A stretch of DNA of 64,000 nt from Halodesulfurarchaeum formicicum (lineage in GTDB: Archaea; Halobacteriota; Halobacteria; Halobacteriales; Halobacteriaceae): contig NZ_CP016804.1 of NCBI RefSeq assembly GCF_001886955.1, positions 1,426,001 through 1,490,000 on the forward strand. Direction: 5' to 3'. Numbering within the stretch: position 1 is the stretch's first letter; each line of letters begins with the position of its first letter. This document shows positions 31,232-36,519 of the stretch, one piece after another. A program made the position numbers and the translations under genes. The notes below the pieces were generated by a model. It ran no database searches. It was not told the origin of the DNA and saw nothing but the letters and a program-made list of their open reading frames with translations.

Positions 31232-32447
31232 GGGAGAACACCTCCATATCCGGCGCGGCGTCGAGATCCCGCCGATCCGACTCCTCGATCACGGTATCCA
31301 GGTCTTTGTCGCCCCGGCCCGAGACGGTCACGATGACCGGGTCGGCGAAGTCCCGTTCTTCGAGCGCCGCCAGGGCGTGGCTGCTCTCCAGGGCCGGGAT
31401 GATCCCCTCGGCCCGGGAGAGGTGATGGAAGGCCCGAAGGGCCGCCTCGTCGCCGACCGAGACTGGTTCCACACGACCGGTTTCGACCATGTGTGCCAGT
31501 TCCGGACCGACCCCGGCGTAATCCAGGCCGGCACTCACGCTGTGTGACTCGACGATCTGGCCCGTCTCGGTCTGGAGGAGCCGGGTGTGTGCGCCATGGA
31601 GGACGCCGTCGGTCCCCGTGGCGAGCGAGGCCGAGTGGGGGGCGTACTCCTCGGATTCGTTGACCGTGAGAGACTCCCCGCCCGCTTCGGCCGCGATCAA
31701 CTCGACCGGGTCAGACCGGAAGTGCTGGAAGGAGCCCATCGTGTTCGAGCCGCCCCCAGCACAGGCCAACACGGTGCCCGGAAGGTCGCCGATGGTTTCG
31801 ATGGCCTGTTCGCGGGCCTCCTCGGAGATGACAGCCTGGAAATCCCGAACCATGCTCGGGAACGGGTGGGGCCCCACCACGGAGCCGATCACGTAGTGGG
31901 TATCCTCGACGTTCGTCGCCCAGTCACGCATGGTGGCGTTGATGGCCTCCTTGAGCGTGCCCGAGCCCTCGTCGACGGGATTGACCGTCGCGTCGTGGGT
32001 CACCATCCGGAAGACGTTGGGCCGCTGGCGGCGGATGTCGGTCCGGCCCATGTAGATCTCACAGTCGATGTCCAGGTGTGCACAGGCCATCGCCACGGCG
32101 GTGCCGTGCTGGCCCGCCCCCGTCTCGGCGATGATCCGGTCTTTGCCCATGTACTGGGCCAGAAGCACCTGCCCGAGGGCGTTGTTGAGTTTGTGGGCCC
32201 CGCCGTGCAGGAGGTCCTCGCGCTTGAGGTACACCTCGGTGTCGTACTCCTCGCTGAGCCGGTCGGCCCGCTGGAGCGGGGTCGGCCGACCGCCGAAGTC
32301 CCGCAGGCGCTCGCGGAACTCGTCCATGAACCCGTCCTCGTTCTCCAGGACGTAGCGTTCGTAGGCCGATTCCAGTTCCTGGACGGCCGGCATCAGTACC
32401 TCGGGGACGTACTGGCCACCATACGAGCCAAAGCGGTGCTGGCTCAT
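31224..32447 (-). CDS. trpB: Tryptophan synthase beta subunit
   Basis: PLP enzyme, 407 aa, which joins indole and serine to tryptophan. It has the N-terminal [11 protein letters not shown], the PLP lysine K86 in [13 protein letters not shown], and the phosphate-binding [11 protein letters not shown]. This is the normal TrpB1-type length, without the TrpB2 extensions. It overlaps trpC by 4 bp and trpA by 8 bp. Confidence 0.96.
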
Positions 32448-33208
32448 CGGGCGACCAGCCTCCGTGTGTTCGCCTCGATGTCCCCGTCCATGATCGCCGA
32501 CCCCACGAGCATGCCGTCGGCTCCTGCTTTGCGCATCCGGTCGCGGTGCGCTGCTGTCTCGATCCCGCTCTCGGCGACGAGCGTCGCCGAATCCGGCACT
32601 GCCGGTGCCAGCCGGTCGACGGTCGAGCGATCGACGGTCAGGGTGGCGAGATCGCGGTTATTCACGCCGATCACCTCGGCACCGGCCGCCAGAGCCGTCT
32701 CGATTTCGTCCCGGGTGTGAGTCTCGACCAGCGGAGTCATCCCACGGTCGCGGGCCGCCTCGATCATTCCCTCCAGGTCATCCAGAAACCGGGCGATCAG
32801 CAACACCGCGTCGGCGGCCACCGCGTCGAGTTGGGCCTCCCGGAGGAGGAAGTCCTTCCGGAGGACTGGCACCGAAACCGCCTCCCGCACTGCCTGGAGC
32901 GCTTCGACCGACCCGCCGAAGTGGTCGGGTTCGGTGAGCACCGAGATGGCGCTGGCCCCGCCGGCGACCATCGATTCGGCCGCCGCGACCGGATCGACGT
33001 CTCGCTCGCCGCTCGTGGTCGGGCTGGTCGGCTTCACTTCAGCGATCAGCGGCGTTCGCCCGTCGGCTTCGGCCCGTTCGAAGGCCCCAGACAGCGAGCG
33101 AGCCTCGACCGAAACCGGTTTGTCGCCACGAGAGCGCTCAGACGCGGCCGCGAGGAGGTCGCGAACCGCCGGCGCGAGCCCCTCGTCGGGCTGCTTTGTA
33201 GTACCCAT
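32444..33208 (-). CDS. trpC: Indole-3-glycerol-phosphate synthase
   Basis: A 254-aa TIM-barrel enzyme that closes the indole ring from CdRP. Typical motifs are [29 protein letters not shown], and [15 protein letters not shown] followed by VAESGI. It is the first gene of trpCBA and has an A/T-rich promoter region with a palindrome immediately upstream (33213-33243). The other Trp genes (trpD, E, F, G) are not in the window, which is usual for haloarchaea, where they form a second operon. Confidence 0.94.
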
Positions 33209-33212
33209 TATT

Positions 33213-33226
33213 GTTCATTGATGAAC
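33213..33226. promoter_or_regulatory. Palindrome between the trpC TATA box and start codon
   Basis: GTTCAT-TG-ATGAAC is a perfect 6+6 inverted repeat 5-18 bp upstream of the trpC ATG. A repressor here would cover the transcription start of a leaderless trpCBA mRNA. The operator role is inferred. Confidence 0.4.
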
Positions 33227-33229
33227 GGA

Positions 33230-33243
33230 TATGTACATAACTG
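33230..33243 (-). promoter_or_regulatory. trpCBA promoter TATA region with embedded TGTACA
   Basis: The minus strand reads GTTATGTACATATC, 22-35 bp upstream of the trpC ATG, the right place for a TATA box. It contains TGTACA (33232-33237), identical to the TRP-box core bound by TrpY in Methanothermobacter. The same block may also serve the divergent gene at 33293. Confidence 0.45.
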
Positions 33244-33292
33244 TTGTGACTCCAGGCCAACGTTCAAGGGCGGTCTCGGCGAACCAAGTCCC

Positions 33293-33754
33293 ATGCCAGG
33301 TGCTGGGATCTACGCCAGGAAGGTGGCGTCCCTCGATCGGTTCGTTCAGATCGGCGTGGCGAACCGGCGGGTAATCTCCCTGTCCGTCCCCGAGACGCCG
33401 GACCCGAGTGCCAAAGCGGACCACGAAATTCTAGACTGGATCGAGGGATACCTCGACGGCGAGTACACGGACGTGACCGAAATCGACGTGGGATTGACGG
33501 TGCCGACTGACCAGCGGGCCGTCCTCGAACGTGTGCGAGAGATCCCCTACGGTGAGCAGTTCCCGCTCGACCGACTGGTCGCACACACGCCGGGCCTCGA
33601 CCCGGCCGAGGAGGCCGACCTGGAGACCGCCAGAACGGCGCTCGCCGAAAATCCGGTCCCGATTTTGATTCCGGACCACCGCGTCACCGACTCGGACGGC
33701 AACGCTCCGCCGGCTATCAGGCGAACCCTTCGCCGGATCGAGGGCCTGGACTGA
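33293..33754 (+). CDS. MGMT-fold protein lacking the alkyl-acceptor cysteine
   Basis: A 153-aa protein with the C-terminal domain of O6-alkylguanine-DNA alkyltransferase. REIPYGEQFPLDRLVAHT is the recognition-helix region, and ENPVPILIPDHRVTDSDG aligns to the active-site loop. In active enzymes this loop reads PCHRV; here the cysteine codon is GAC (Asp), so suicidal alkyl transfer is not possible by the known mechanism. Alkyltransferase-like (ATL) proteins have Trp or Ala there and only bind lesions, so a binding or other role is inferred. ATG 33293 was chosen because the frame further upstream is antisense to trpC. Confidence 0.8.
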   Translation: MPGAGIYARKVASLDRFVQIGVANRRVISLSVPETPDPSAKADHEILDWIEGYLDGEYTDVTEIDVGLTVPTDQRAVLERVREIPYGEQFPLDRLVAHTPGLDPAEEADLETARTALAENPVPILIPDHRVTDSDGNAPPAIRRTLRRIEGLD

Positions 33755-34415
33755 CTTTCGCGTGCCGGAGAAACTCCACGAGATCGACCAGGTAATGGAC
33801 GAGGATCACGAGCCAGAGACTCCCGCCGAGCCAGAAGGCCACGCCAAGTCCGACCCCAAGCATCGAAGCGACCAACATCCCCACTTGGCCCTGGGCCGTG
33901 TGGGCCAGCCCGAAGCCGAGACTGGAGCCGACGATCAAAACTGCCGGGTGAATGCCCGTCCCCGCCGCCAGCCCGCCGATCAACACCCCACGAAACAGCA
34001 CCTCCTCGCTGATCGCGATGACCGGGAGCACGACCCCGGCGAGGACGACCCACTCCAGGGACCGTTCCGGAGTGAGAAGGGCTCGCAGCGGGTTGTCGGT
34101 GTCCACGGCGAGTTTCGACGCCCCTTCGTTGAGCGCCACGAGCGCGACGGTTAGTCCCACGAGGGCGAGGATTGTCGGGCGGTCGGTCACACCAAGTGTC
34201 GAGACCGGGGCGCCCGTCCAGACGAGCAGGAGCCAGACCGCCCCGACGAGGAGTGTCTGTGTCACCACGAGGTTCGCGTAAAGCGCCAATCGCCCGCCCT
34301 CGATCGGACGGTCCGGTGTAGCGAGAAGTCGGGCCGAGCGGCGCGCGAGGACGACTACGACGGCTGTGAGAAGGACTGCAGACACGGCAAACGTGGTCCA
34401 GGCCGGGCTCGCCAT
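33717..34415 (-). CDS. CPBP-family intramembrane metalloprotease
   Basis: A 232-aa polytopic membrane protein of the CAAX/Abi (CPBP) family. Motif 1 is SEEVLFRGVLIG (EExxxR) in a transmembrane helix, motif 2 is GFGLAHTAQG (FxxxH) and motif 3 is HYLVDLVEF (HxxxD/N). About seven transmembrane segments are visible. The substrate is unknown. Its 3' end overlaps the convergent MGMT-like gene by 38 bp. Confidence 0.88.
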   Translation of the reverse strand: MASPAWTTFAVSAVLLTAVVVVLARRSARLLATPDRPIEGGRLALYANLVVTQTLLVGAVWLLLVWTGAPVSTLGVTDRPTILALVGLTVALVALNEGASKLAVDTDNPLRALLTPERSLEWVVLAGVVLPVIAISEEVLFRGVLIGGLAAGTGIHPAVLIVGSSLGFGLAHTAQGQVGMLVASMLGVGLGVAFWLGGSLWLVILVHYLVDLVEFLRHAKVSPGPRSGEGFA

Positions 34416-34452: not shown

Positions 34453-36519
34453 CTACTGCGGGGAGGGGTTGGCCCCGGTCGCCGTGGTTCCCTCGGTGGC
34501 TTCCAGGGCCTGCCCGGTGATCGACTTCAGCCGATCGACCAGCGAGTCCTTCTCGGGTTCGCCGGCCAGGGCCACGTCGAGCACTTCGCTGATGTGGGAG
34601 ACGGGGATGATCTCGATCATCTCCTCGTACTCCTCCTCGATCATCACGTCCTGCTCGTTGGCCTTGGGAATGATGACCCGATCGTAGCCGGCTTTCGCGG
34701 CGGCCTCGATCTTGTGAGTCACGCCGCCGACCGGGAGGACATCCCCACGGACCGAGAGCGATCCGGTCATCGCGAGGTCCTGCTCGATCGGGATGTTCTC
34801 CAGGGCCGAGATGACCGCCGTCGCGACGGTGATGGAGGCCGAATCGCCCTCCACACCCTGAGTCTGGATGAACTGCACGTGGATGTCCTTCTCGGAGATG
34901 TCCTCGTCGGAGAACTTCTTGATGATCGCGGAGACGTTCTGCACGGCTTCCATCGCCATCTCCTTGAGTTGGCCGGTGGCGATGACTTCGCCGCCCTCAC
35001 CCTGCCGAGGCGTGACCTCGGCCATGACGGGGAGCACGATCCCGGAGTCACCGCCCATGACCGCCAGGCCGTTGACCCGGCCGACCGCGCTGCCCTCGTT
35101 GACCTTGAGTTCGTAGTCCTTGCGCCGCTCGATGTAGTCATCGGCGAACTGCTGTTCGATCGAGCGGGAGCGCTTTTTCGCCTCCAGGACGTGCTCGCGC
35201 TCCACGAACTCGGCGTTCTCGGCCTTGGCGATGTCCCCGGCCACGCGGACCAGACCACCCAGATCACGAAGTTTGAGGGTCAACTGACCCTTCCGACCGG
35301 ACCGGCGTTTGGCCTCCAGGATGATCTCTCGGACCGCATCGGGCTGGAAATGTGGGAGCCGGCCGTCTTTCTCGACCTCCTGGGCCACGAAGCGGGCGTA
35401 TTGCCGCCGGGTGGTGGGCGTCTCGTCGATGGAGTCCTCCATGTAGACCTCATAGCCATAGCCCTTCAGACGGTCGCGAAGCGCCGGGTGCATGTTCTCC
35501 ATCGCGTCCATGTTCCCCGCCGCGACCATGATGAAGTCACACGGCACGGGTTCGGTCTGGACCATGGCCCCCGAGGAGCGCTCGGACTGGCCGGTGATCG
35601 AGAACTCGCCCTCCTGGATCGCGGTCATCAGCTTCTGCTGGGACCGGATGTCCAGGGTGTTGATCTCGTCGATGAACAGCACGCCCTTGTGGGCTTTCTG
35701 GATGGAGCCCGCCTCGACGCGCTCGTGGCTCGGGGTCTCCATGCCCCCGGACTGGAACGGGTCGTGGCGGACGTCGCCCAGCAGGGCCCCGGCGTGGGCG
35801 CCCGTGGCGTCCTCGAAGGGCGCGATCGACCGCTCGCCGTTATTGACCAGCAGCTTTGGAACCATCGCGTCGGTGCCTCGGTTCGTGTACCGGAAGGCGA
35901 AGTAGATGACACCGGCGGCCAGCAGACCCAGCAGGACCTGGCCGGCGATCAGGATGGCGTACCCGACGATGATCGCGATGACGATCCACATCAAAAACGA
36001 GCGCATCTGCTTGCGCTTCTGGGCCTCCTCCTGGTGGGCCTCGACGATCTGATCGCCCTTGCCCGCGGGCACGGTCCTGACCCGCGGTTCGTTGGAGTCA
36101 TCAGGATTGTGATAGACCAGAACGTCCTGCAGGCTCTCCTGGGGGAGCAGGCGGCTCATCGCCTTCGCGAGCATCGACTTCCCGGTCCCGGGGGAGCCGA
36201 TCATCATCACGTGACGGTGCTGTTTGGCGGCCCGTTTGACGATCTCCCGGGCCTCTTCCTGCCCGATGACCTGATCGACGAGCCGTTCAGGCACCTCGAT
36301 GTCGGCCGTCGAGTCGATTCGCAGGCCACCGAGGAGGTCGTCCTCCGCGGCGTCCTCGTCGATCGTGAGGTCCCCTTCGACGTCGACTTCGCTCCCGAGG
36401 TCCTCCGAAAGCGGGACCGAATCGCCCTCCGCCGGCGTGTCCTCACCGGACGGACGGTCCTCCCGCTTCCGGATCGGGGCGTCGTCGCGGGGGGGATCGC
36501 TCGTAGGATCGTTGCTCAT
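34453..36519 (-). CDS. lonB: Archaeal ATP-dependent Lon protease (LonB, membrane-bound)
   Basis: A 688-aa LonB. The Walker A motif is GSPGTGKS at about 108-115. A two-helix membrane insertion (about 174-211, [20 protein letters not shown] then [14 protein letters not shown]) lies within the AAA domain, as in archaeal LonB, and the Walker B region is [11 protein letters not shown]. The C-terminal protease domain has a Ser-Lys dyad at S560 (GVEGDSAS) and K603 ([10 protein letters not shown]). It degrades membrane and soluble proteins and is essential in Haloferax, where it controls phytoene synthase. The acidic N-terminal 60 residues are typical of haloarchaea. Confidence 0.95.

Follow-up and report, generated by a model that had tools for sequence, protein, structure and literature searches.

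The window, i.e. the whole stretch of 64,000 nucleotides of Halodesulfurarchaeum formicicum DNA that was analyzed, contains a gene for a protein related to O6-alkylguanine-DNA alkyltransferases (OGT/MGMT), in which the alkyl-acceptor cysteine is replaced by aspartate. Features distinguished within and beside this gene are summarized in Table 1.

Table 1. Features of the OGT-like gene and its surroundings (window coordinates).
Feature	Coordinates	Strand	Remarks
OGT/MGMT-like protein without acceptor Cys, 153 aa	33293..33754	+	ATG start; orthologues in Halobacteria
Leu92, position of the base-flipping Tyr	33566..33568	+	Tyr in 0/142 crown, 4/4 early and 16/16 Cys-type sequences
Residues 100-106, insert in the helix-turn-helix (HTH) turn, acidic in the family	33590..33610	+	Absent from Cys-type haloarchaeal Ogts
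Predicted HTH, recognition helix (residues 107-118), Arg114 replacing Gly	33611..33646	+	
Asn120, equivalent of the Asn hinge	33650..33652	+	Invariant
Asp128 codon GAC, position of the alkyl-acceptor Cys	33674..33676	+	Motif IPDHRV = residues 126-131
His129, equivalent of the relay His	33677..33679	+	Invariant
Glu150, equivalent of the relay Glu	33740..33742	+	Invariant
trpC (indole-3-glycerol-phosphate synthase), divergent neighbour	32444..33208	-	84 bp from the OGT-like gene
Palindrome GTTCATTGATGAAC, putative trp operator beside the trpC start	33213..33226	.	Belongs to trpC
CCAACGTTCAAG, putative TATA/BRE of a leaderless promoter	33257..33268	+	Conserved block ~25-36 nt 5' of the ATG (alignment)
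CPBP-like gene (presumed identity)	33717..34415	-	Shares 38 bp with the 3' end of the OGT-like gene
Archaeal Lon gene (presumed identity)	34453..36519	-	Follows the CPBP-like gene

The protein was assigned on the basis of a match to PF01035 (OGT DNA-binding domain) that exceeds the curated cut-off (30 versus 27 bits, E 4.6e-7); its match to TIGR00589 lies under the respective cut-off (25 versus 46.4 bits). A phmmer search of solved structures with the 153-aa query retrieved alkyltransferases, together with tags and fusions derived from them. An earlier note on this DNA had reported Asp (GAC) in place of Cys, i.e. PDHRV for PCHRV, and the open reading frame, the motif and the codon were all confirmed. 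A sequencing error, which that note had allowed for, is excluded by the two congeners that were read, as both also encode Asp (GAC and GAT). Its identification of an OGT/MGMT homologue devoid of the acceptor cysteine thus stands, but neither the rarity that it ascribed to the Asp version nor its analogy with ATL proteins was upheld. Judging from its residues, the protein is unlikely to carry out alkyl transfer.

The divergent orientation relative to trpCBA was likewise noted correctly, and trpC is located divergently upstream in 114 of the 149 orthologue loci. On the other side, on the opposite strand, lie two genes which we take, from their sequences, to encode a CPBP-like membrane protease and an archaeal Lon. 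They are present in 86/149 and 71/149 loci, respectively, counts in which the absence of a neighbour is a soft observation, as the flanks vary in length.

Spread of the family and the acceptor position

Of 391 Halobacteria genomes drawn evenly across the class, all but one (G346, 88% complete) carry an orthologue, as do all 26 genomes of the family to which the source genome belongs. When 294 genomes of the phylum were searched with a profile, these proteins stood apart from their relatives: matches from outside the class reached at most 75.2 bits, and the lowest crown orthologue among the matches listed scored 193.8 bits. PF01035 matched all 81 diverse family members tested. A search with the single protein among named relatives yielded three loci, two of them haloarchaeal, and no relatives were found in the plasmid records searched.

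The residue at the acceptor position was read in 149 orthologous loci, which span most of the sampled genera (L099 and L100 possibly repeat genomes already in the sample). Left out before this count were L001, a copy of the window, the N-terminal piece of L092, and L096 and L097, which are second pieces of genomes already counted. Asp occurs in 136 of the orthologues, followed by Ser (7), Thr (2), Cys (2), Ala (1) and Gly (1), and Trp in none of the 149. Among the crown Halobacteria, Asp is found in 136/145 sequences (94%), one of Ser, Thr, Ala or Gly in the remaining nine, and Cys in 0/145. The alignment of haloarchaeal MGMT-like proteins proposed in the earlier note therefore shows that Asp, considered uncommon there, is the rule in haloarchaea. 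In 4 of 28 genomes (G324, G365, G374 and G392; loci L088-L090, L092, L096 and L097) the orthologue was matched only partly or in two pieces, which may reflect frame breaks or assembly errors.

A cysteine-containing second copy was also searched for in the genome (one contig, 2.09 Mb), as the same note had suggested, and no other PF01035 or TIGR00589 match exceeded the cut-off. A sub-threshold PF01035 trace (E 0.12, G000:C1:1807201) was rejected, its open reading frames showing no PxHR motif. Separate Cys-type Ogts above the TIGR00589 cut-off are encoded in 32 of 97 haloarchaeal genomes and in none of the other 65; the figure of 32 results from 34 after subtraction of G040 and G026, whose TIGR00589 matches are the family orthologue itself. 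These Ogts (e.g. L057-L068) share superfamily and host genomes with the family described here, but form a separate clade, have PCHR and the base-flipping Tyr in the 15 that were read, and occur as a separate copy in only the 32 genomes mentioned. They were picked with a pattern requiring PCHR, so that this motif is universal among them by construction; each of 16 loci yielded one.

Among the titles listed in searches of open-licence papers, none concerns a haloarchaeal OGT-like protein with Asp, and these searches yielded no description of the family. The direct-repair part of a review on Haloferax names photolyases and restriction-type methyltransferases, with no mention there of methylguanine or Ogt (PMC7776575), and Halobacterium salinarum, according to one study, encodes no homologue of MGT1 (PMC2816208). 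About two-thirds of the sampled haloarchaea (65/97) lack a separate Cys-type Ogt above the cut-off, which raises the question of how O6-alkylguanine is handled in these organisms.

Predicted fold, pocket residues and ancestry

A complete two-domain OGT fold, with both the N- and C-terminal domains, is predicted for the protein. The AlphaFold2 model, built with 81 family sequences (81 of 82 diverse picks, the odd two-piece match L089 being excluded), has a mean pLDDT of 96.1 and a pTM of 0.88. Its top match in the PDB is the Sulfolobus OGT bound to DNA (4zyd; Z 18.0, 1.9 Å over 140 residues), with an alignment spanning residues 4-153; OGTs in general align from residue 2-4 onward. Crystal structures of whole OGTs gave Z scores of 14.9 to 18.0, the NMR model 2g7h gave 10.5, and ATL structures 8.3 to 8.9 over residues 70-153 only. 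With 4zyd the protein shares, besides the full-length two-domain fold, the Asn hinge, the His and Arg of PxHRV and the relay Glu. It differs from OGT/MGMT in the absence of the Cys nucleophile, the flipping Tyr and the full active-site loop, and in the added acidic insert of the HTH turn.

Across all orthologues Asn120 and His129 are each kept in 149/149 sequences, Arg130 in 148/149 and Glu150 in 148/148. The position of Asp128 ranks under this set, in which Leu117 is also invariant. Further residue counts refer to the 146 of 149 rows with a length of 140-170 aa (142 crown and 4 early), and the Cys-type comparison set comprised 15 haloarchaeal Ogts and one from Kosakonia. The relay Asn, His and Glu are each present in 142/142 crown rows, and the position of the base-flipping Tyr is occupied by Val in 116 of these. 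Aligned with Cys-type Ogts, the crown family is devoid of most of the active-site loop and carries an insert of ~7 residues in the HTH turn.

The mean net charge of turn and recognition helix together is -4.9 across the 142 crown sequences, whereas the 15 Cys-type Ogts of haloarchaea average -0.3. As the proteomes of the latter are acidic in the same way, halophily alone cannot explain the acidic turn. Nor can this turn alone exclude DNA binding, since it is similarly acidic (mean -4.2, n=4) in the early clade, which has kept the Tyr and the loop. In our protein the Arg-finger position holds Glu111; 25 of the 142 crown rows have Arg there, in an alignment that the insert makes uncertain. Loss of the finger is not diagnostic and was dropped as a criterion, because Arg was found there in 0/15 haloarchaeal Cys-type Ogts. 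In all 15 (L057-L068, L030, L098 and L170) the position holds Val, Ile or Gln, and these enzymes may flip bases without an Arg finger.

A tree built from 106 rows unites the family in a single clade (support 100/99), within which four early sequences (98/90) form the sister group of the crown (100/99). A separate clade (100/98) among other Cys-type sequences holds the 15 Cys-type Ogts of haloarchaea. The tree took 70 of the 149 family rows, its bootstrap was unsettled (0.968), the letter composition of many outgroup rows is unusual, and row L101, grouped as a haloarchaeal Ogt, comes from Kosakonia. The early members, L091 (G040), L093 (G293), L094 (G385) and L095 (G230), belong to families f5 and f11. 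All four retain the Tyr and have an aromatic residue in the loop, with Cys in two and Ser in two at the acceptor position; we see in this mixture intermediates of the loss. No trpC was found in the examined flanks of the four.

PCHR is present in all 20 homologues that were sampled from the phylum outside this class, and their active-site loops contain, as judged by eye, Gly-Tyr or Gly-Phe. These were chosen with the pattern P-any-HR, so the presence of Cys in 20/20 is a genuine result, and it places the loss within haloarchaea. On the tree, the state at this position (Asp or not) changed at least six times among the 70 family rows, which indicates that a strict nucleophile is not required. 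From these sequences it appears that haloarchaea lost the Cys, that Asp established itself as the usual residue where the crown began, and that it was subsequently replaced in several lineages.

The gene is also under purifying selection, as shown by the dN/dS ratio, by five invariant columns among 81 diverse members and by its near-universal presence. Between two congeners, dN and dS are 0.059 and 0.305 (NG86) or 0.053 and 0.385 (YN00), i.e. dN/dS is about 0.14-0.20.

Possible functions of the protein

We propose, with moderate confidence, that the protein descends from a Cys-type O6-alkylguanine-DNA alkyltransferase, that transfer was lost at the base of the crown Halobacteria, and that the resulting pseudo-alkyltransferase was kept for another task. 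As far as residues can tell, cysteine-based transfer chemistry is impossible here and the parts for flipping and closing are gone, so that the protein would represent an anciently repurposed OGT without alkyl transfer, distinct from classical ATLs. Its near-universal carriage despite the loss of the repair residue suggests that haloarchaea probably retain it for a different job. No covalent alkyl-protein adduct would be formed; instead, as the conserved residues suggest, a ligand may be bound non-covalently in the former active-site pocket, where Asp128 would lie next to His129 and Glu150. Our guess is that this ligand might be a nucleobase, damaged or free or within DNA. The bound state would then be read by a partner, which would pass the signal on. 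The protein would resemble ATLs in binding without repairing, yet it would do so without their base-flipping tools. Two points count against parts of this proposal: the conserved residues of the pocket could be kept only for folding, and Asp in 94% of the crown exceeds what pure neglect would lead one to expect.

The family is a variant of a known fold family and no new kind of system. On the strength of its PF01035 match it could be misread as a DNA-repair methyltransferase, which the residues appear to rule out. Its Cys-bearing sister group offers a natural before/after comparison for a suicide repair enzyme turned to other use.

The main rival to repurposing for another task is an ATL-type lesion sensor, which would bind and shield O6-alkylguanine in DNA and recruit UvrA/UvrC for nucleotide excision repair (NER), with Asp in place of Trp. 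Such a role agrees with the OGT fold with its HTH, the missing Cys and the presence in the genome of UvrA (1355.9 bits) and UvrB (994.5 bits), NER proteins that an ATL would need. The lack of an above-threshold Cys-type Ogt here, as in all but 32 of the 97 genomes sampled, leaves room for another factor handling O6-alkylguanine, and a link to NER is possible. The acceptor Cys is also replaced in Atl1 (PMC10779285). In ATLs, however, the replacement is mostly Trp, and according to the same source they lack the N-terminal domain and retain the base-flipping Tyr and the Arg finger (PMC10779285). The haloarchaeal protein has the N-terminal domain and Asp, Leu92 occupies the Tyr position (Tyr being found in none of the 142 crown rows), and the base-closing loop is mostly gone, which leaves little of the ATL analogy drawn in the earlier note. 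In addition, the HTH turn is acidic. S. pombe Atl1 (3gva) and the V. parahaemolyticus protein (2kif) share with it only the OGT C-terminal domain (residues 70-153, Z 8.9 and 8.3), the former score lying far under those of OGTs. The haloarchaeal Cys was lost within haloarchaea, in a tree that itself contained no ATLs. We therefore regard the lesion sensor as doubtful, and the regulation of trp genes, catalysis by Asp and a remnant as less likely than this.

An HTH protein encoded divergently from trpC might regulate trpCBA by binding the intergenic palindrome. TRP boxes have the consensus TGTACA, which occurs at 33232, in the same intergenic region as GTTCATTGATGAAC, and the segment 33209-33240, comprising both elements at the trpC promoter and conserved across haloarchaea, is a candidate trp operator. 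The exact palindrome occurs once in the genome. A relaxed form of it was found in 79 of the 114 loci with adjacent trpC, in 0/35 others and in 1/149 shuffled sequences. Palindromes of that kind are, however, also kept at trpC in 19 of the 20 genomes fetched as having trpC apart from the OGT-like gene (the place of the latter is not listed for G107), the lone exception being the early-branching G040. The palindrome thus belongs to trpC, and adjacency alone is no evidence for trp regulation by the OGT-like protein. The conservation of the genes on the other side indicates, moreover, that the whole neighbourhood is stable. The acidity of the turn plus recognition helix counts against this role too. 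Since trpC is present in 97/97 haloarchaeal genomes, trp-less genomes cannot serve as a test of such a role. TrpY of Methanothermobacter is described as binding TRP boxes within a divergent promoter, and TrpY homologues are stated to exist in haloarchaea (PMC6737238); the latter also argues against this reading. We consider trp regulation improbable.

It is very improbable that Asp128 is catalytic, either as a carboxylate nucleophile whose alkyl ester is then hydrolysed or as the general base of a glycosylase. Asp is frequent in the crown (136/145) and adjoins the invariant His129, Glu150 and Asn120, but its replacement by Ser, Thr, Ala or Gly in nine crown sequences, the repeated changes on the tree and the loss of the flipping Tyr and most of the loop speak against both roles. 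There is accordingly just a slim chance that Asp128 and the His129/Glu150 pair form a turnover enzyme, in which case haloarchaea without a Cys-type Ogt would repair O6-alkylguanine catalytically.

A decaying OGT remnant, to which the lost catalytic residues and the split or short matches in 4/28 genomes might point, or a sequencing error has a practically negligible probability and is refuted by the presence of the gene in 390/391 genomes, its dN/dS, the five invariant columns and the Asp shared with the congeners.
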